Under the pieces are notes generated by a model that was not told the origin of the DNA, searched no databases, and worked only from the letters and a program-made list of their open reading frames with translations. Shown piece by piece: positions 33,130 to 55,696 of a stretch of DNA of 64,000 nucleotides. The position numbers and the translations under genes are program-made. Each line of letters opens with the position of its first letter. The first letter of the stretch is position 1. The DNA is from Ilyonectria destructans (lineage: Eukaryota > Ascomycota > Sordariomycetes > Hypocreales > Nectriaceae): NCBI GenBank assembly GCA_020740775.1, contig JAHEWK010000012.1, positions 2,108,001-2,172,000 of the forward strand, read 5' to 3'.

Positions 33130-35691
33130 TTAACAGAAACTCGCTAATGCCTTGCGTGCATTAGAGCTGGAAAGGAATAAAAGACGGAATCTCTCAGCCC
33201 AATAACACTGTACAATGTTAATATTAGAAGACAAGGCAAGAATAGGCGCCCTACCTTCCCAGCCCCATTCCTTCATTATGCTGAGCCAATGGAATTTGCT
33301 CATTATTGTAAACTCGACGCATTTGAGTCTCGTTCTAGGATCCATCTTTCCTGTGTGGATAGTAGATCGCCCATTTTCAAAGCCACAAAGGCAATCTTCT
33401 TCAACAGAACGACCTTCTATACCCCTCTGTTCAAAGCTGGCATTTGAGTCAGTGGCTCCAAAAATTGAGCAAGGAAGCGAAGTAGCTGGCGTTTCAACCC
33501 CACAGAGGTGGCCCGGCGCGCAGTGTTTCTTATGGTTGTCGCGTCTTCTCCAAACTTCCTTTGTCAACTCCAGACACCGCTCCACGATTCCAGAGGTGTT
33601 TCCTGCAGACTGTGACTGCCACCTCTCCAGAACCCAATCTCTGTCTTCAGGTTCTGTAGTCTCACAACCAGCCATTAACAAAGGTAAAATTTGGAATGCG
33701 ATCGTGCGGGACGTGAGAGGCACTGTAGCGAGAAGGATGAGGACGTTCTGGGCCATTTCAGAGAAACCGATTCGACTGGGAAGTTCTGGTACCGCTTGAT
33801 GTAGGAGAAGCAGTGTTGCCCATCTGTACGCGTTTGCCGTCTGGATTAGATCCGAAGTATGGGACGTTAGACTTTCACCTTCGATTGGTCCAAGAGAGTT
33901 GATAGGGGGATTCCACTGCTCGATAGCCGCCCTCAGCGCAACGGCACGGGAGATGATGGTGAGAGAGTTGGGTTTCTCTGGTGTTCGCCACACGCGACTA
34001 ACAACATCTGCCACGCGACCAATCCATGGAAACAAAGTCCCTGCAAATCCCATGAGATGGTCAATCTCAGGTCCAGAATCATTTGTAAGATTGTCTAGAT
34101 TGCGGGCAGTCATGAAATCGACGTCCAGAGCCTGAATGCTGTGGCAGGTAATGCGTGCAAGGACGTCCATGTACATCCAGGTATTGGCAAGAAAGTTCAG
34201 AGCGGCTTGGTTGCGTTCCGGCACCTGAGAAGAGAGATGCATGGAAAAAGCCTTTTGGAGGAGGACCTTGGCGCCTTCGATGTGCCTGATTGCAGTGGAT
34301 GATCTCGGATAGCTCCAGGTTTGAGCGAATGCGAGAGCGACCGTCACAGTCAGGACCACTTCAAGACGCATGCCGCTACTGTCCCCTGCGGAAAGACTCT
34401 GCATACTGCGTTCAAGGTGGCGTATGCCCTGAGCACGAAAACGAGGACGATTATTGAACCCCTGGAAAAAGGTCATGGCCGCGATTGCGTGATAGAGTGC
34501 AGGATGTTCCTTAGCGAGAGGCCAGACTATGGTCCGCCATGGGTTTCCGGTTGGGTCATCCTTGATGGAAAGAAGCTCACATATTCGACGGTCGAAAAGA
34601 AGAGCTACACTCTCTGGACTATCGCTGTGTATGTGTGGTTGATGGTAAAGAGGGAATATCCCCTGCAACATGTCCTGCATGACTCCCCTTGAGGAACATG
34701 GCAGAGTTAGGCGAAACGATAGATTCGGAGTCTGGTGGCCAGAGCCGAAACTATGTGATCGGGGGGTCATTTCCCAACCATCGTGATATGCTGGTGTTTC
34801 TGATTGTTGACCTGGTGAACCCAGCACATCTGCGGTTTCGACTGCATCAAATGGAAGAAGTGTGGAGGATCTGGTAGTGCCATCGCGTTCTGCGGCTCTT
34901 GTTCGACTGACAGGCTGCAGTGGAAACTGATCATCAAGAGCGTCGGCAGCGTTGGTGCCCGAAAACAGCGCGTCGAGGTCCCCAAGCTCTCCTAGAGGGC
35001 TGGGAGATATGTCAAAGGAAATGTCGACCTCAGGGTCGGACTCCCGTATAAACCAGGGGCTCTCACTGCGAAAGTTGGGGTTAGGGACAGTCTCAGCCGT
35101 GTCGGGTGGCGGAGATTCTGAGTCGACTGTCTCGGATACTCCATACTCTGATCGAGTTTTGTGAAGTGCATCGTCTTGTAGCTCACTGCTCCTCGTGGTT
35201 TCTCGCGAATCATCGGGCTTTCGAGAAATCGGAGGACATATGGGACGCCTTGGCGTTTCGTCGTGTGAAGAGGTGGTCGTATGTTCGGGTTTCTGGAACT
35301 CTTTCCATCTCAGATCTTTGGTGTAACCATCGCATGTGACGCTGCGACGAACGCACTGTCGACAAGATGGCTTCGCCTCATCGCACTTCCTTCTTCTTGC
35401 TTTACAAGTCGCGCACCCTACGACCATGATTCGTTAGTATTGTTCGATATCAACCCTCGTGTCCCGCTGTGCTATTCGGTAGGATCGAGGGAGGAGACAG
35501 GACCAACCGTTACGACTTTTCTTGGACTTGGGCTTTGATGATGGCTCTCCATCCGCAAGTACAGGAGAACCGCGGGGCAGCAATCGACGTGGCTGGACCA
35601 GTCTCCTCGTTGTTCTTGACGATGGGTTGATGTCTTGTGTCATAGGCCGAATGGTTTCGATAGCCAAGCAAGGCGCAGATGTCGCACTCAT
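33130..35691 (-). CDS. Zn2Cys6 transcription factor (fungal-specific), 2 exons
   Basis: Exons 35691-35508 and 35417-33130 are joined by a 90-nt intron with a TACTAAC branch point, giving 823 aa. The DNA-binding cluster C63-x2-C66-x6-C73-x6-C80-x2-C83-x6-C90 is complete, preceded by a basic stretch KPKSKKSRNG. The intron falls exactly before the cluster. The ATG at 35427, in frame with the cluster, lies inside this intron and is probably not the true start. A Met at residue 17 is an alternative start. The rest shows acidic/Ser-rich linkers and a fungal-specific regulatory domain (residues ~300-800; LYHAIAAMTFFQGF, MYMDVLARITCHS). It is divergent from the adjacent Rieske-type gene pair, so it is a candidate regulator of those genes. 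Confidence 0.9.
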
Positions 35692-36581
35692 CCCAGATGT
35701 AGAACTGGCTGTCAGAGGCAGCGCAGTGCTTGACGAGTTACTATCCGACCCTCACTATGGCATCGTGGTGGAAAGAAATCGAAATGACACTGATACCGGG
35801 TTGAGAGATAGCGCTGTGAGGAGGCAAACATACCTATTTATGGCTTAGCGTGTGTCGGTGAGGCGGCCAGCGCGTGGCAAAGAGATCACAAGCAAGTACT
35901 CAATTGGGCACAAGGTCGCAGCCAGCACTCAACTCAAGGTGTGCAGGCTGTCCGCATGTGATCAACTAGACTAGAGCTAAGTTAGTACATGGTTTCCGTG
36001 GAGAAAGACCCCCGATGCTTGAGCAGTCACACATTACAAATCCCGACCCCTTCGGCAGGCAATGAGCAGAGCAAAGCCGGGTCTTATCAACACATTAAGA
36101 GCGTATCTGCGGCCTCGGCATGTACCAAGGGATGAATATACAGCGCACAGTGCATCTTATGTGGTCTACACATAGTGTACATACAGTACGACGTAATATT
36201 CGTACGGATCTCAAGTATCATGGTCCAGTTACAGCACGGCGCCTGGAAGATCAAATCCGAACCACAATTATTGCGACCTTATCGGTGGGGAACAAGACTG
36301 TCATCTGCCCAATGCTACATATGACACACCGCGAGTTCTCCAATTGGCTGGAAACCTGCGGATTGCATTTCCCAAAATGGACAGTTGGAGAGCATTCCCT
36401 TCGTGACCTGATTGGCTGGATCATAGTGTGGGAATAGCGTCGAACAACGCCTTTCCCGTGTCATCATGCCCATCATCCTATTTAATGCACAAATCTATGG
36501 CCGTACTCGCGTTGCCGAGTTTCAGTTCTTCTAGATCTCCTTTGAAAGGCAACAAACAGAAGATTCTCAAAATCCACTACA
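35692..36581. promoter_or_regulatory. Divergent intergenic region between Zn2Cys6 gene and Rieske-type gene pair
   Basis: These 890 bp separate two divergent starts (35691 on -, 36582 on +), so they should carry both promoters. A CGG-CCT-CGG direct repeat at 36110-36118 resembles half-sites used by Zn2Cys6 factors, but this alone is weak. Open frames here have no similarity. Confidence 0.5.
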
Positions 36582-37644
36582 ATGGTCCACTGCTCAACAA
36601 CGCTTCCCGCCTCTTGGTACACCAGCAAGGCGGTATACAGCTTAGAGAGGCGGGCTGTATTCCTCAAGGTTTGTTTTGGAGTCCAATTAACTTTTCCAAT
36701 ATGATTCTCACATTATTTAGTCATGGATGTTGCTTGGTGCAGTCACCCGATGGCCGGAGGTAGGAAAAGACTACTCCTATGACTTGGCACAGATTAAGTT
36801 CTTCGTTCGACGCAATTCAGCCGATCCGACAAGTCTCAGGGTCTTTTCAGACCCCGAGGTATGTTGAGGACCTCCCTATCTGACGATGGCGAGTCTATAC
36901 ATGACTGATGCACATGATAGGGCCAAGAGATGCGCAGCCACTTGACACCGACAGGGTTATTGTTTACGACGCTTTCTGACGAGACAGTCAGCTTTGACGA
37001 ATATTTCCCTGGTCTAGAGGACTTGATAGCACACGTTGACTTTACGAAGTTTCAAGTCAGGCGAACACTCAAATATCCCGGCAACTACAACTGGAAGGCC
37101 ATGGTCGATGGATTCCAGGAATGCCTTCACTGTCCCTACGCGCATCCGGCGTTTTGCAAGGAGTACGCCCCAACTACCTACGAGATTCGGAATAACCACA
37201 ACTACTCGCAACACTTTGTCGAGACAGACCGGCCGGATGACGGTTTGTTCCTCTACTTCTTCCCCAACTCCACGCTGAATCTGTATGCTGGCGGCATGTC
37301 ATCGTTTCGCGCCTGCCCATCCGAGGACCCTGCACAGACAACGATGTTGTTCGACTATTACCATTGCGAGCCCGATGGTTCTGAAGAATTTGAGAACTAT
37401 TTCAAGTTCACGCGCACAGTTGGAATCGAGGACCATGAGCTTTGTGAGAAGACACAGGCGAACCTTGAAGCTGGCATTTATACGGAGGGCGTTCTCAACC
37501 CAGACAAGGAAAATGGCGTTGCGTGTAAGTATTCTTCATAAGCTTGGTGCTGAAATACGTACTCATCATGTGCCATTAGACTACCAAGGCCGAGTGCTAG
37601 AAATGTGTTCCGCTCAGTTCCGGGAGGAAACAGTCGGGGCCTGA
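36582..37644 (+). CDS. Rieske-oxygenase catalytic half (no [2Fe-2S] ligands), 4 exons
   Basis: Exons 36582-36668, 36721-36858, 36921-37524 and 37580-37644 are all in phase and give 297 aa. It resembles choline-monooxygenase-like Rieske oxygenases: an N-terminal TLPASWYTSKAVYSLERRA block, then a shrunken first domain, then the SRPBCC-type catalytic domain. The mononuclear iron site is intact: NWKAMVDGFQECLHCPYAHP gives bridging E142 and ligands H145 and H150, and EDHELCEKTQ gives D246. Where C-x-H and C-x2-H of the Rieske cluster should lie (between LRVFSDPE and GQEMRSHLTP), about 50 residues are absent, exactly at the second intron, whose 62 nt cannot encode them. Alone it could not receive electrons by the normal route. 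It is in tandem with a second, complementary gene 923 bp downstream. Confidence 0.85.
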
Positions 37645-38567
37645 AATGCTGCCACGGATGTGCCTGGGCTTGATTAACAAGTGTCGAGATAGCGTCAAAA
37701 TTAAAAGCCAAGCCCGACCTCATTGTGACGATTCGCAAGATTTTGAAATGTAGCCAGACGCAAATGAAGATGCATGATATGGAAGGGTTTAATTGCATTT
37801 GCCCTCTTTCTGGATTTCCTGACTCGCTATGCTGTAATCATTGTTCAATTATCTTGGTCACCTTTTTAAACTGTAACTATACCCTAACGCGTGGCCGATA
37901 GTACCCAATTTTGGTTAGCTATTTCTCTCAGAGGTGCTACTCAACTAAGTGATAGTGTCAGGGTGACTTGTTAGGAAACACCAATCCCTAGTACAGTGAT
38001 ACCCCACGGCCACTGCACCCATCTTCGTTGACTTCCTCACACCACAGAACTCAAAATAAAGTTGCTAAAAAATGTCACCAAATTCATAATCCCTTCATCT
38101 TCAAGTAAAGATAATTTGACTATAGCTCCCAAGCCAGTTTGCAAAAATGACACTGTTGATACTGCGTGACGTCGAAGGTCTGGCTGTCTTGGGATACGAG
38201 GGGGCGGGGTCATGCGTTGTCACCTTTAGATATGCTCACCCTATCAACAGCAAAGGAATGAATTTCCATTTTAGGGTCGTGAGTACTCTCAAGTTTATCA
38301 GGTCTTCTGATCGTTGGTTCCCCGCGTTGTTGTGTACCTTGGGGACCGACTTTCCAATTTCGGCATTGATAACCGATACACGCGGGGCGGTGCTACCTTA
38401 TCACACCCACGATAATCAATCTATCGGGCATCAGTAACATATTGGTATGCTTTAATGACTCTTATTTATCTAAAAGTCAGTCCGAGTTCACTAACCTTGC
38501 TCGAGAAAGATTATTACCTCTTTATTCTACCCAGTCTACTTGTTCGGAGACGCACTTTATCAACATT
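37645..38567. other. Spacer between the two Rieske-type genes
   Basis: It contains the terminator of the first and the promoter of the second gene. An open frame at 38147-38437 (96 codons) has no recognisable family and is not called. No Rieske-type CxH/CxxH coding block is hidden here in any frame that I could find. Confidence 0.5.
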
Positions 38568-40022
38568 ATGGAGCACATTAGCCTTCTGCCAGATGCATTC
38601 TTTTGCGTACTTTTCGTTTCGATTTCCTTGATCTTTTGGTTATTGTTTGGAAAAATCGTACCGTCATCCAAATCTGGCATCTTTACCACCCGATCACTTG
38701 CTTTAGTCACGAATAATGAAGCAACAAAGCGACGAACGCTCCCTCAAGGATGGTGGACTGATCACTCGCGTTTCCAGCTCGAACGGCGAGCCATTTTTAG
38801 CAAGGTACCATCCATTCAATCATACTTTCTCGGATCTGGCCTAATCCGGGCAGATTTGGATCTGTGTCAGCCACCGCGGCCGCTTTGTGAATCCTGGAGA
38901 CTATGTCTCGCATGAGCTCGCTGGCTTTAAATTCTTCCTCATCCTAGGAAAAGACCAAATTGTGCGAACATTTCACAATGTTTGTCGCCACAGGGCATTC
39001 CCGGTGACCAGCAAACCAGCTGGATCATCGACAGTCCTGGGATGCAAGTATCACGGATGGAGCTATGATACCATAGGCCGACTTACAAAGGCACCACATT
39101 TTGAAAAGGTCCCGGACTTTGATAAGGAACAACACAATCTTTTCGAGATTCACACGAAAGTGGACAACGATGGTTTCGTCCATATAAACTTGAGTGCGAT
39201 CGAAGGAGCAGGCGATACCGAGTTCATCGCCGCGAAGGTGATCGGGAGACCCACCGGGATCCGGCAAGATTCGCAACTCGTACACAGTTTGGAATGCAAA
39301 GGTAAATTTAACTGGAAGGTGGCGGGTAAGTGATTTTATCACATATGAGCCATATGTTGAAATATGCACTAAATTTAGAAGCAGCCAACGAAGCTGGCAA
39401 CAACAGCGATATGATCCCAAATGACTTTGCAGGAAATCCCACAAGCAGGGTTTTTCGTACCTTCTCGGCGTTTGGGCCCGTGTTTACGGGTCAGCTGCAC
39501 TACTTTCCACTTACTTCTGTATACACGAAGACTGGGAGTCCATTTTGGTTCCAGTTCACATTCTCCCCAGAGTCCACACAACTGACGACACTACGGTGTG
39601 ATGTTTACTCGGCCAAATACTCAGGCTCTGTTGATTTTGAGGGAATTATTAAAGATAATCTTCAAAGCCTCGTCACATCAAAGATTCAAGAGTACGAGAG
39701 GGTATATGCAAAGCTCACTGGCTCTGAGGGCCACCCCAGTGATGGAAGCTGTATGTGAAACTCGAGTCCTGGGTGAACCGCCATGACTAACCATAGTGTG
39801 TAGACGATGAAACCAGAATCGCTGATATTGTGGAAGCACATCTCCGGGAGGAGAGATTAGTGGGAAGAGATATTAAACCAGCTACAGTGCAGCAGTGCAA
39901 GAGCACGGCGTTTACTCAAGCAGAAGGAAGTAAGTCCATCATATCGTGGGCCACGACATGGAATCTTAAAGTTAACATATTGAACAGTATGCCAGGCAAT
40001 GGAAGACAAACTGGCTTGGTAA
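38568..40022 (+). CDS. Rieske [2Fe-2S] half-oxygenase with N-terminal membrane anchor, 5 exons
   Basis: Exons 38568-38804, 38854-39325, 39379-39750, 39804-39929 and 39988-40022 are in phase and give 413 aa. Residues ~10-27 (AFFCVLFVSISLIFWLLF) form a membrane segment. The LPQGWWTDHSRFQLERRAIF block and a complete Rieske domain follow: C123-x-H125 (NVCRHRAFP) and C143-x2-H146 (GCKYHGWSY), with GRLTKAPHFEKVPDF. The catalytic-like domain begins FNWKVAEAANEAGNNSDM, so the expected E/D-x2-H-x4-H iron motif is absent, as is the late D-x3-CE motif. It should therefore hold a Rieske cluster but no mononuclear iron. The three central introns have good branch points. It is in tandem with the catalytic half upstream. 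It could instead be an oxygenase that lost activity. Confidence 0.85.
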
Positions 40023-40360
40023 CAGTAATAAACTGGTATGGCATTGCAGAAAGCAGCGTGGCAACAGGACAGCAGATTGGTACAATACTCGGGAGATAGA
40101 GCAAGGGAAGGACAGATTACTTCTTTAACAGCAGTAAAGGGAAAGAAAAACAGAATGCAAATATAATTGAGGTCTATAATGTCCGGATGGGGGTGTATCT
40201 AAGTAAGGAGACCAATTAGAAGAGGGAGAGAAAGAGAGAGAATTGGTTATGAACTATTCTGACAAATTGTAGTTCTTCAGTTGTTTCATTCAATCGGGCG
40301 TGATCTTGCAGTCAGTGAATCTCGTCCTCTGCTTCTGATTGCAGTGCACCCTGACCTCCC
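40023..40360. other. Convergent 3' flank
   Basis: This is A-rich DNA with a GAGAGAGAAAGAGAGAG tract near 40222-40239. It lies between the stop of the second Rieske-type gene and the stop of the tubulin fragment. Nothing else was seen. Confidence 0.5.
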
Positions 40361-40740
40361 CTACTGATCGCCTGCTGGGGCGTCATCTTCATATTCTTCA
40401 AGATCCTCGTCCATGCAGGCATCCTGGTATTGCCGGTATTCCGACACCAGGTCGTTCATATTCGACTCCGGCTCGGTGAATTCCATCTCGTTCATGCCCT
40501 CGCCCGTATACCAGTGCAGGAAGACCTTTCGTCGAAACATGACAGAAAACTGATCGCCAATGCGGCGGAAGACCTCCTGAATAGCCGTCGAATTACCCAT
40601 GAAGGTGGATGAAACGGGGAGCCCCCTCGGCGGAATAGAGCATAGTGCCTTTCTGTACATTGTTGGGGATGCATTCAACGAAGTAGGCCGAATTCTTGTT
40701 TTGAACTGCGCGGATCTGCTCCTCCACTTGCTTCATCGAC
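40361..40740 (-). pseudogene. Beta-tubulin 3' fragment, frameshifted
   Basis: The reverse strand reads [18 protein letters not shown], then CIPNNVQ, then after a one-base shift [62 protein letters not shown], and an acidic tail. These are the last ~125 residues of beta-tubulin in order, including the C-terminal acidic tail ([12 protein letters not shown]). The 5' three quarters of the gene are missing. The +1 shift after NNVQ and the missing GTPase half make it a pseudogene. Residues at usually invariant positions (MEFTEAE to MEFTEPE) are already changed. Confidence 0.9.
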
Positions 40741-41591
40741 ACTTTTTCTCAGCTAGTACGTCTGTTAGATACTAATTTCTCCTGGAGGATGTATTGCGCT
40801 CACAAAATAGCTGAGCAAGTCAAAAACCGGCTGTTACGAAAGCCCGAAGCCGGCATGCGGTTCTTCGGATCAAATATCTGCTGCGTCAACTCTGACACCG
40901 CGAGCGCCGTGACACCGCGAGCGCCGTGACCCCGCTGTCGTAGAGAGCTTCATTGCCGATACAGCATGCTTCATCAGAGTTCTAGATATCTACGGAGGGG
41001 CTAAAGGAGGAAAGGGTACGCCCTTCAAGTAGGCTTCGGAACCCTTTGATAAGAAAAACATGAGATCCAAGCCCCCAGGCGTCTACAACGTCTCGAGATA
41101 AGATCCGACTGTAACAGAGTATTGGATTATTTTGCTCATGCAGTTTAGGTGTAAAGAGTTGATCCCTTCCTGTGCAATTAGTTCCGGGGATCATGTCTTC
41201 CCCGGAACGGGGCCACGAAAAATAAAGAAATGACTCGTGCAGATTACCGAAGTGATAAGAACTTGCTTAGTAGCAAGCGTCTGATACAGGATAGTTCGCA
41301 GTTAAGGATGAATAATATAATCAACAAGCATAAGATAAAATCCATGAAACTATCCATCCTAAGTGCCGACTTTAACTCGTCACGCCATTCTACCCCCGCC
41401 TGATATTCAAAATGTTTTCTAGTAGAAAACTCACCGGCCGTATAATAAAACAGGCCTCAGGGAGGGCTATGGAGAGGGTCCTGATTGAGGCAGTCCCGCA
41501 TCTGACTAGGGTCAGTGGGGAGTAACACGACTAAGTATATTGGATAAAGCAAAAGCCTCGACAGCACTCACTAATGCCTACTAGACTGCTA
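40741..41591. other. Intergenic region with a 17-bp tandem duplication
   Basis: GACACCGCGAGCGCCGT is present twice in tandem near 40894-40927. Otherwise there is no coding similarity on either strand. Confidence 0.5.
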
Positions 41592-45275: not shown

Positions 45276-46707
45276 ATGCTTCGTTCACTTATTACGATGG
45301 CACTTGTTGCCTCGGCGGCCATTGCCTCGCCGCTGCAAATCCACAGCCGCAAAGATCCCAACACTGGCTTAACTTGGATCTACAAGAATTCAAGCCTGCC
45401 GAAAGTCATGCAAGTAGAATGGCCAGAAATTCACCTTGGAGCTATCTAATCTCTATTATAGGCTGTATAACACTGGCGATGGGACCATCTTGTCGGGTTC
45501 AACAAACGGGCGCTTGGACAACATTAACTATGGAGGAGGTATTGGCGGTTTGACTCCGGAAACCCTCATTGGCAATGTTAGCGAGGTTCTCGACATTGCC
45601 CAGTTTGCGGTTCGCAACATTGGCGGGGGCGGCAGTGCCAATGCCGACTCGGACAGGTTCCTAAACATCTCGATGGATGCACACACTCGACTGTGCTCCC
45701 GCCACTCTGACATTGTCGGCGCTGTCATGATCCACGGCACCAACACGCTGGCTGAGACTGTACGTTTTCTGTTAACGTTCTAATCTCTGAGATTCTCATC
45801 TAAATTATACCCAGGCTTTCGGTGTTGATCTCACCTTGAACTGCTCCAAGCCCTTTATTGCCACAGGCTCCATGCGACCCAACTCCGCCTTATCAGGTGA
45901 CGGACCTCTCAATTTCTATGACGCTGTCAGAACTGCGATTCACCCCGAGGCGCGTGATCGTGGAGCTATGATTGCGTTCAACGATCACCTGGTGTCTGTT
46001 TTCTATGGAACCAAGACCAACGGTAACACAGCCACGACCTTCTTGGCAATGGATCAAGGCTACATTGGCCAGTTTCTGGCCGGACAGCCGTACTTCTTTT
46101 ACGGCCCATCTCTGCCCAAGGCTCGACATTATTTCAACCCGTTCAAACTCCATTATCCCCTTCCCAAGGTAGTGGTTCTTTACGGCCATCGTAAGTGAAA
46201 AACAACTCGGAAGTTCAGAGCTTTATACTGACCTCTCTACAGAGGGGTTCGACGCTAACCTGTTGTACTCTGCTGTTGCGGATGGAGCCAAGTAAGTTGC
46301 ATTTTTAACGCTTCATTGGACGCGCTGACAGGCTTAGGGGAATCGTCATAATGGGCGTCGGTCCTGGCGGCCTTAGCACCGCCGCTACCGAAGCCGCTAA
46401 TGCACTCTTTAAGAAGGGCATTGTCACTGTCGCATCACTCCGCCCCTTCTTCGGTGCAGTTGTTCCTGGACCTCAAATAAGCAATATGTAAGTCAATAAC
46501 TTTTCGAGTTTTGAAAGATAGTACTGGACTAACAATTCTCACAGTATCAGCTCGGGCTTCTTGCACGGCGAGCAATCCCGCATTCAGCTCCAGCTCGCTC
46601 TTGCATCTGGCTATAGCGTCAGTGGCATCCGGAAATTGTTCGAGGGGGATATCCGTAAAGCGGTGTACAACGATGCCACAGCCTTTTACAACGGCACGGA
46701 CTTGTAA
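45276..46707 (+). CDS. Secreted type-II L-asparaginase-like protein, 6 exons, GC-AG first intron
   Basis: Exons 45276-45409, 45462-45759, 45815-46190, 46243-46291, 46338-46487 and 46545-46707 are in phase and give 389 aa. The signal peptide is residues 1-18 (LITMALVASAAIAS). Asparaginase blocks are VMLYNTGDGTILSGS (T53 equals the nucleophile Thr), AVMIHGTNTLAET, ATGSMRPNSALSGDGPLNFY and a TKTN block with K211. The bacterial/fungal T-D-K triad therefore reads T138-N139-K211: the Asp of GTDT is Asn here. There is also an extra residue in TGDGTI versus the usual TGGTI. The first intron uses GCAAGT as donor; GT alternatives break the frame. The enzyme would act outside the cell or in the secretory pathway. 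Activity on asparagine is uncertain because of the changed residues. Confidence 0.88.
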
Positions 46708-53800: not shown

Positions 53801-55399
53801 TCAAGGTAGTTCTGCTCGAGGAGCTGAAGCTAAAGCATTGTCAGCTAGCTTTTGAGTGCGATAGAGTACTTTTTTACGTACGAATCTCTCTTGCCCTCCA
53901 ACTGGACTCTCTGGGATGCTCAGCACCGGACTTGCCCCGCAGTCGAGATGAACCTGAATCTTGTCTCTAAGCCGTAAGTAGATTGCGAGGTGTGGTCGCT
54001 TATGATCAAGCTCCCCATCTAGCTGACCACCGAACTGAAGATCCCGGAGCTGTTGATCACACCAGTCTGTTGTTGTTGGGTCAAGAAGATCGTCTATATC
54101 GATAGAATCGACAGCGGCCATCATCTGGGCAAGCCCATCTCGAGCCGCAGGCCCTAGATGGACTGCCCAGTTCTCCACTTCGCTTGTATTATACAGATCC
54201 ATTGGGATCCCGGCGACGAGATGCTCCCTATTCTTCTGTGGCCGGATGCGATGGCCGTTCCACATCTCCGTGAAGTCCGCAACCTCTTGACGGATCATGG
54301 GTCCATAGAGAGCATACACCGCGATCTGGTGAGCAAGACGGTTTGGTTGGAAGAGGCCGCTATCAATCAGCTCGTGTGAGAACGCGATCCAGCGCTGACT
54401 GACACCTTTAAGTAGCTTTTCCCACCAAGACTCGATCCGTTGGTTCGATGTGCTTGGGCCCCAGATATGACAGGAGCTCAGTCTCGCTCCCTGCCTATGG
54501 ACTCGTTGGTCGTTATCATCGGTGGTATACCGAAACTCTGTCTGATCAAGGTCGGCGAGAATCGCCTGGGCTCCGGCCCAAAGAGGAGTCTCGATACCAT
54601 GATCCGAGCGGGTGAAAAGGGGCCGGACCCCTGAGTACGACACGGTCCGTAGAAACTGTTTGAGTGAACTCAGCGCAGTCATGTTCCCCCTGCCGACATA
54701 TATCCAGATGATGGCTCTCGAGTACGTGTCGATACAGGCGTAGATAGAGAAGCCGAAGTTCTTGAGCTTCTCGTACCCATCGAGAGACCACATGAAGTTA
54801 GGCCCAGGAACCTGGAAGTTCTTCCGGTGCTTCCAATCAGCAAGGCGTCTTTGTTCGGCCCGCTTCTTCCACTCTGGGTTCGTTTGGTACTCGCGATATA
54901 AGGTATTCTGGCCGACAAGGACGCCGGCACGGATGCGGACGTAGTGGTATAGATACCCCCTGCCAAATCCTCTGATGCTTGAAGATTGACGGTCGTCTTG
55001 GAAGAGGAACTCTCTTGCTTTTTGAATAGCATCCTGTCGTTCAGTCAGATCTCGGAAGCGCCGCTTCATGCCATGCTTCAGACGATACTCCTGTACAGTC
55101 CGCTCGGAGATCTCGATGCCGCGTCGCTTGAGATCACGGACGATGGAAGTGTCGCTATATCCGTATCGGTAGAAGTAGCCTTTGATCAGCTCGACGAAGG
55201 TGTTGGTATCAATCTTTGAGTGAAGGGGGGAGTACTCCTGTGCACCCCATTCCGCTAACCTCCTTTTCAGGGTTCTGGCGTCGAGTACGTGCCCATCGTC
55301 GCGGAGATGGGCACATATAGTGTCAATGGATAGTCCTTCTCGCCGCTGCTCGAGGATCCAGTCCTTGACGCCCTCCAAGTCTTTACGGGGCCTCGGCAT
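53801..55399 (-). CDS. DDE integrase-core transposase
   Basis: The 532-aa protein is encoded without introns. Residues 1-115 hold two helix-turn-helix-like repeats (EGLSIDTICAHLRDDG with RTLKRRLAEWG; YSDTSIVRDLKRRGI with RTVQEYRLKHG) suited to binding terminal repeats. The integrase-core catalytic triad can be placed at D207 (MWSLDGYEKLKNFGF), D266 (TRSDHGIETPLW) and E323 (STSNQRIESWWEKLL). The order FSIYACIDTYSRAIIWIYVG is typical of rve-like cores. The C-terminal region (WNGHRIRPQKNREH) matches the family end. The protein would cut and join the element at 6-bp staggered sites in the nucleus. The related dead copy has a lost ATG and stops, so this may be the only source of the enzyme in the window. 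Confidence 0.9.
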   Translation of the reverse strand: MPRPRKDLEGVKDWILEQRREGLSIDTICAHLRDDGHVLDARTLKRRLAEWGAQEYSPLHSKIDTNTFVELIKGYFYRYGYSDTSIVRDLKRRGIEISERTVQEYRLKHGMKRRFRDLTERQDAIQKAREFLFQDDRQSSSIRGFGRGYLYHYVRIRAGVLVGQNTLYREYQTNPEWKKRAEQRRLADWKHRKNFQVPGPNFMWSLDGYEKLKNFGFSIYACIDTYSRAIIWIYVGRGNMTALSSLKQFLRTVSYSGVRPLFTRSDHGIETPLWAGAQAILADLDQTEFRYTTDDNDQRVHRQGARLSSCHIWGPSTSNQRIESWWEKLLKGVSQRWIAFSHELIDSGLFQPNRLAHQIAVYALYGPMIRQEVADFTEMWNGHRIRPQKNREHLVAGIPMDLYNTSEVENWAVHLGPAARDGLAQMMAAVDSIDIDDLLDPTTTDWCDQQLRDLQFGGQLDGELDHKRPHLAIYLRLRDKIQVHLDCGASPVLSIPESPVGGQERFVRKKVLYRTQKLADNALASAPRAELP

Positions 55400-55696
55400 T
55401 GTACGAGACGCAGACCAGGGGTTCGAGATCGTGGTAGAGGTCGGAATTCATACCTCCTTCCAAGGCTTCCAGCTGCAATATCCCCCTCTGAACCGGCATT
55501 ATCGGAGCTTCGGCGCCGATGGAATGGCATCAGCACCGCTTGGTATGGCATCAGCTTTGCTACATTGAAAACAGTGCGCTATCATATCAATACTGTAGCC
55601 CCATATAAAAACGCCGAAAGCCTATGTGCGAAATAGCTCCAGTCATTTTCGTACATGGTTTTGTCACCCATGTGGTAATGTGCGACCGTACGGACT

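Follow-up and report, generated by a model that had tools for sequence, protein, structure and literature searches.

Can the two metal centres of a Rieske oxygenase (RHO) be divided between two neighbouring genes that still make one enzyme? The question is raised by two genes, here called A and B, of Ilyonectria destructans. They lie in a stretch of 64,000 nucleotides, hereafter the window (assembly GCA_020740775.1, contig JAHEWK010000012.1, positions 2,108,001 to 2,172,000), on contig C4 of a genome of 71.7 Mb in 74 contigs. An earlier note on this DNA described the pair as complementary halves of an RHO. In the usual RHO trimer, the chains are arranged head-to-tail, and electrons go from the cluster of one chain to the iron of its neighbour, ~12 angstrom away.

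Gene A (36582-37644) encodes 297 residues in four exons and gene B (38568-40022) encodes 413 residues in five exons. Both are on the + strand, with a spacing of ~0.9 kb. The spliced models were rebuilt here, and the gene coordinates and residue numbers of the earlier note proved to be exact. Its description of clean introns and in-phase, open exons also holds: all seven introns of the two genes are GT..AG introns of 49-62 nt, and the exons join in phase without internal stops.

The family alignment reveals a reciprocal loss of the two centres. Gene A contains all residues of the iron site (D138, E142, H145, H150, and D246) and has a gap at each of the four Rieske ligand columns. Gene B contains all cluster ligands (C123, H125, C143, and H146), and its iron-ligand columns are occupied by N244, I249, and L331. 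E241 of gene B is retained at the column of the bridging carboxylate. The same division is seen in Pfam searches by hmmscan at E up to 1. Gene A matches PF00848 alone, with 80.2 bits against a cut-off of 24.9; PF00355 was not matched, and the CxH..CxxH motif is lacking. In gene B, PF00355 is the sole domain above cut-off (49.5 bits, cut-off 20.3); PF00848 was unmatched, and the 2-His-1-carboxylate site is lacking. The other Pfam match of gene B, to a C2 domain, reaches 12.2 bits and is under its cut-off of 22. As RHO alpha subunits, A has the iron site only and B the Rieske centre only, and the complementary loss claimed before is upheld by both alignment and Pfam. A splice form that restores a missing motif had been named as a refutation. 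The three forward frames of 35950-38200 contain no CxH with an in-frame CxxH at Rieske spacing, and those of 38100-40400 contain no ExxHxxxxH. Thus, no splice form from this DNA was seen to restore the lost centres.

The genome was searched with PF00848, PF00355, and both proteins, and a spliced aligner yielded 11 further full RHO models, for a total of 13. Both centres are present in nine of them. The four single-centre forms are A, B, and two genes designated C5:771k and C1:2551k. In C5:771k (locus L034), the CxH..CxxH segment was removed by an in-frame deletion of ~40 codons within one exon. C1:2551k (locus L035) has all its Rieske ligands and, of the iron ligands, the first His; the second His is replaced by Ser, and Asp is absent at the third position. 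Exactly at the Asp-ligand position, TTAGGG-like units lie in frame (L035:3739-3753), by appearance a telomere-repeat insert. C5:771k and C1:2551k constitute a second complementary set that is unlinked and located on different contigs. Their sister grouping is weakly supported, at 91/81 in a bacterially rooted tree and 78/80 in a fungal-only tree; by domain, the support is 92/78 for the Rieske part and 43/8 for the catalytic part. The genome searches found no RHO partner gene adjoining either of them, and no other RHO or Rieske match is listed on the contig of C5:771k. All nine complete paralogues end in an [LI][AE]W motif, as does gene B in the form of KLAW; the motif is not present in A, C5:771k, and C1:2551k.

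Two further observations were made in this family. A truncated RHO fragment close to paralogue C74_414 (L121, G000:C34:3226000-3231000, - strand) has an apparently broken frame, with an ALEW end that is recoverable only if 46 bases are skipped, and provides an example of ordinary decay. Two complete RHO genes on different contigs (L029 at C25:398k and L030 at C74:3020k) are near-identical and represent either a recent duplication or an uncollapsed haplotype.

In bacteria, CxH..CxxH and HxxxxH occur together in 88 of 88 RHO open reading frames (ORFs) from 80 fetched loci, a count that leaves out the third iron ligand. The first pattern recognized 80 of these ORFs; by inspection, seven more have a longer Rieske spacing and one has Asp for the bridging Glu. 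The loci were found through motif patterns and represent the top 80 among the 555 relatives of a capped list, which skews this background in favour of complete enzymes. With both motifs present in all 88 bacterial ORFs as well as in the nine complete paralogues, single-centre subunits are exceptional among the sequences compared.

The conservation of gene B follows the centre that it keeps. Invariants were defined as positions constant in the nine complete paralogues, ligands excluded, and comprise 39 Rieske and 27 catalytic positions. Gene B keeps 35/39 Rieske and 14/27 catalytic invariants (Fisher p 0.001). In a leave-one-out analysis, each complete paralogue loses at most five Rieske and four catalytic positions. 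The end branch of B is 1.10 for the Rieske part versus 3.78 for the catalytic part, and those of other rows range from 0.0 to 0.72. The Rieske domain of B is under stronger constraint than its remaining domain. C1:2551k keeps 39/39 Rieske and 23/27 catalytic invariants, and C5:771k keeps 15/39 and 26/27, respectively.

The exon structure links A to B. An intron at the ..K/xW junction (column 80, phase 0) and another inside Y of YFQ (column 405, phase 1) are common to A and B and occur in none of the 11 other genes. Conversely, an intron at column 320 is found in 10 of the 11 other paralogues and is absent from A and B. The chance of the two matches is 1.25e-5, or 0.0013 with three columns of slack, under the assumption of uniform placement, which real intron sites do not follow. 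The two unique positions favour an origin of A and B by tandem duplication, as support and not proof; the shared introns could instead be ancestral and lost once in the other paralogues.

These features would be explained if A and B were tandem, reciprocally reduced RHO alpha subunits of the CntA/GbcA type, whose substrates would be quaternary-ammonium compounds. B, probably held at a membrane through its N-terminal helix, would retain the [2Fe-2S] cluster and, upon contact with A, pass electrons to the mononuclear iron of A, where substrate and O2 would react. The best 19-residue window at the N-terminus of B starts at residue 10 and is strongly hydrophobic (residues 10-28, Kyte-Doolittle (KD) score 2.53), which suggests a membrane anchor; the start of paralogue C74_414 is likewise hydrophobic (1.86). 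In a mixed head-to-tail trimer, either AAB or ABB, exactly one junction would be productive from B to A, a stoichiometric limit that the earlier note does not mention. Alternatively, B may act as a separate donor that docks on A, like NdmD on NdmC. That A and B form a working split enzyme, in which the cluster of B feeds the iron of A, is a plausible reading of their sequences, to which we assign somewhat less than an even chance. We are more doubtful that reciprocal centre loss made a homo-oligomer an obligate two-gene enzyme, and that a similar split has begun or happened again in C5:771k and C1:2551k.

A number of results weigh against cooperation of A and B or against their common origin. 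In a tree rooted on 14 bacterial sequences, B and the remaining fungal rows group to the exclusion of A (99/98), and a sister relation of A and B is rejected (approximately unbiased (AU) test, p 0.02). By domain, with 13 of the 14 bacterial rows, the same test gives p 0.054 for the catalytic part and 0.12 for the Rieske part. The fungal-only tree does not reject the sister relation (AU p 0.43), and long-branch attraction towards the outgroup is likely. The earlier proposal of a duplicated homo-oligomer that became an obligate pair is supported in part: the two shared introns favour the duplication, and the rooted tree opposes it. No pathway partner stood out among the 16 other window ORFs scanned. 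Structure models were made of single-exon monomers only; that of exon 3 of gene B has a predicted local distance difference test (pLDDT) score of 63.3, with residues 1-40 under 50, and gave zero matches in the PDB at E up to 0.001. Moreover, the unlinked positions of C5:771k and C1:2551k indicate that single-centre forms need not be neighbours, unlike an obligate adjacent pair.

The last point leads to a different arrangement, in which A is a real oxygenase half served by another Rieske protein, such as a complete paralogue or a ferredoxin-like protein, with B being an independent pseudoenzyme or the donor of some other system. Nine complete paralogues are available in the genome. C5:771k is Rieske-less with nearly all catalytic invariants in place, and the lack of a listed Rieske match on its contig means that its donor would act in trans, if it works. 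This arrangement leaves the close spacing of A and B, their two common intron positions, and their exact complementarity unaccounted for, and we regard it as unlikely.

The rates of A add to the case against a split enzyme. A keeps 17/27 catalytic and 13/39 Rieske invariants, with 16 of the 39 being gaps; the difference has a Fisher p of 0.024 if gaps count as losses and 0.77 if they are dropped. Its end branches are equally fast in the Rieske (2.32) and catalytic (2.33) parts, so the catalytic domain of A is not specially conserved. The subfunctionalisation inferred in the earlier note is supported by the domain-specific conservation of B; the catalytic domain of A, itself fast-evolving, does not add to it. 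Over the whole length, the branches of A (4.89) and B (4.41) are far above the median of 0.51, indicating very fast evolution. Such branches would suit two dead pseudoenzymes with a regulatory or substrate-binding role and a coincidental complementarity, all the more as single-centre forms make up 4/13 of the models, which makes losing a centre no rarity in this genome. Pure pseudoenzymes, however, need neither the complete set of iron ligands in A nor that of cluster ligands in B, and this explanation appears improbable.

A and B might also be redundant copies in slow decay, sampled before either had acquired a stop or frameshift. In keeping with this are the L121 fragment and a tubulin fragment adjoining B, both apparently broken, and the telomere-repeat-like units at the Asp-ligand position of C1:2551k. 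We give it little credence, since neutral frames as divergent as these (amino-acid distances 1.1 to 3.8 per site) would be expected to hold many stops, A and B have terminal stops only (with which recently begun decay is still compatible), and their invariant positions are retained well above variable ones. The five other frames of A and B hold 8 to 24 stops each. Open frames at such distances point to selection at the protein level over most of that time, and GC content at third codon positions (GC3), which exceeds intron GC, agrees. The measured constraint may in large part predate the loss of the centres, which again counts against a split enzyme.

The proposed split enzyme can be compared with known systems. 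CntA, the oxygenase subunit of carnitine monooxygenase, and GbcA carry both centres on one chain, and so do the stachydrine demethylase-type enzymes. CntA (PDB 6y8j, 6y9c, and 6zgp) and the glycine betaine monooxygenase GbcA (NCBIfam NF058607) are among the closest known systems, as are the quaternary-ammonium Rieske enzymes of the stachydrine demethylase type (PDB 3vca and 4qup). The complete paralogues of this genome likewise have both centres on a single chain, whereas A and B have one each. Against the GbcA profile NF058607, with a cut-off of 670 bits, A scores 47 and B 86.1, and neither qualifies. In the bacterial caffeine N7-demethylase NdmC/NdmD, the catalytic subunit NdmC has no Rieske cluster of its own and depends on one located on another polypeptide; the extra Rieske domain is fused to a flavin/ferredoxin reductase. 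Gene A resembles NdmC, as commonly defined, in being a catalytic subunit without a Rieske domain. Gene B differs from NdmD in being an oxygenase-type subunit, with only PF00355 above cut-off and no reductase domain found. The alpha-beta Rieske dioxygenases of the naphthalene dioxygenase type are hetero-oligomers in which alpha contains both centres and beta none. In contrast, A and B each lack one centre.

The features of both genes are listed in Table 1, together with a transcription factor ORF that we infer may regulate A and B.

Table 1. Coordinates of gene A, gene B, and related features (window positions unless a locus is given)
Feature	Position	Strand	Description
Zn2Cys6 / Fungal_trans_2 transcription factor ORF	33130..35433	-	Divergent; Pfam; candidate regulator
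Gene A exon 1	36582..36668	+	29 codons; contains LPASWYTSKAVYSLERRAVFLK; intron boundary between ..LK and SW at the column and phase of B intron 1
Gene A exon 2	36721..36858	+	Rieske-domain remnant without cluster-binding loops
Gene A exon 3	36921..37524	+	Catalytic domain: D138, E142, H145, H150, D246
Gene A exon 4 and stop	37580..37644	+	Family C-terminal tail missing
Gene B exon 1	38568..38804	+	Anchor-like hydrophobic N-terminus, then start of Rieske domain
Gene B exon 2	38854..39325	+	Rieske domain, C123/H125 and C143/H146, through FNWKVA; PF00355
Gene B exon 3	39379..39750	+	Catalytic-like domain, degenerate, iron ligands gone
Gene B exon 4	39804..39929	+	C-terminal region (IADIVEAHLREE)
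Gene B exon 5 and stop	39988..40022	+	C-terminal tail; ends in KLAW, family [LI][AE]W motif
C5:771k gene	L034:3924-5140		Second Rieske-less RHO; both ligand pairs deleted

Other features were observed in the window. The tubulin C-terminal fragment lies directly downstream of B (40361-41000, - strand). It matches Tubulin_C with 23.4 bits (7.1e-5), under the cut-off of 26.6, appears by eye to be beta-tubulin, and shares 73% identity over 331 bases with another genome site (C45). Pieces of an asparaginase (PF00710) occur in two frames at 45418-46198 on the + strand, as a split gene or a pseudogene. A 548-codon open frame at 53801-55447 on the - strand contains an integrase core domain (PF24764, rva_4) and may belong to a mobile element or be a domesticated integrase gene.

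Split Rieske enzymes as such have a bacterial precedent in NdmC/NdmD. New here are the intron pair unique to A and B, the domain-skewed invariants of B, and the second, unlinked complementary set. If A and B cooperate, they would allow electron transfer between Rieske oxygenase subunits to be tested in a natural system, with the centres on separate genes that can be mixed, titrated, and mutated separately. Such a pair would also cleanly exemplify how complementary loss makes a homo-oligomer interdependent. Even without cooperation, four of the 13 RHO proteins in one genome are single-centre forms, which the annotation 'Rieske oxygenase' would conceal.
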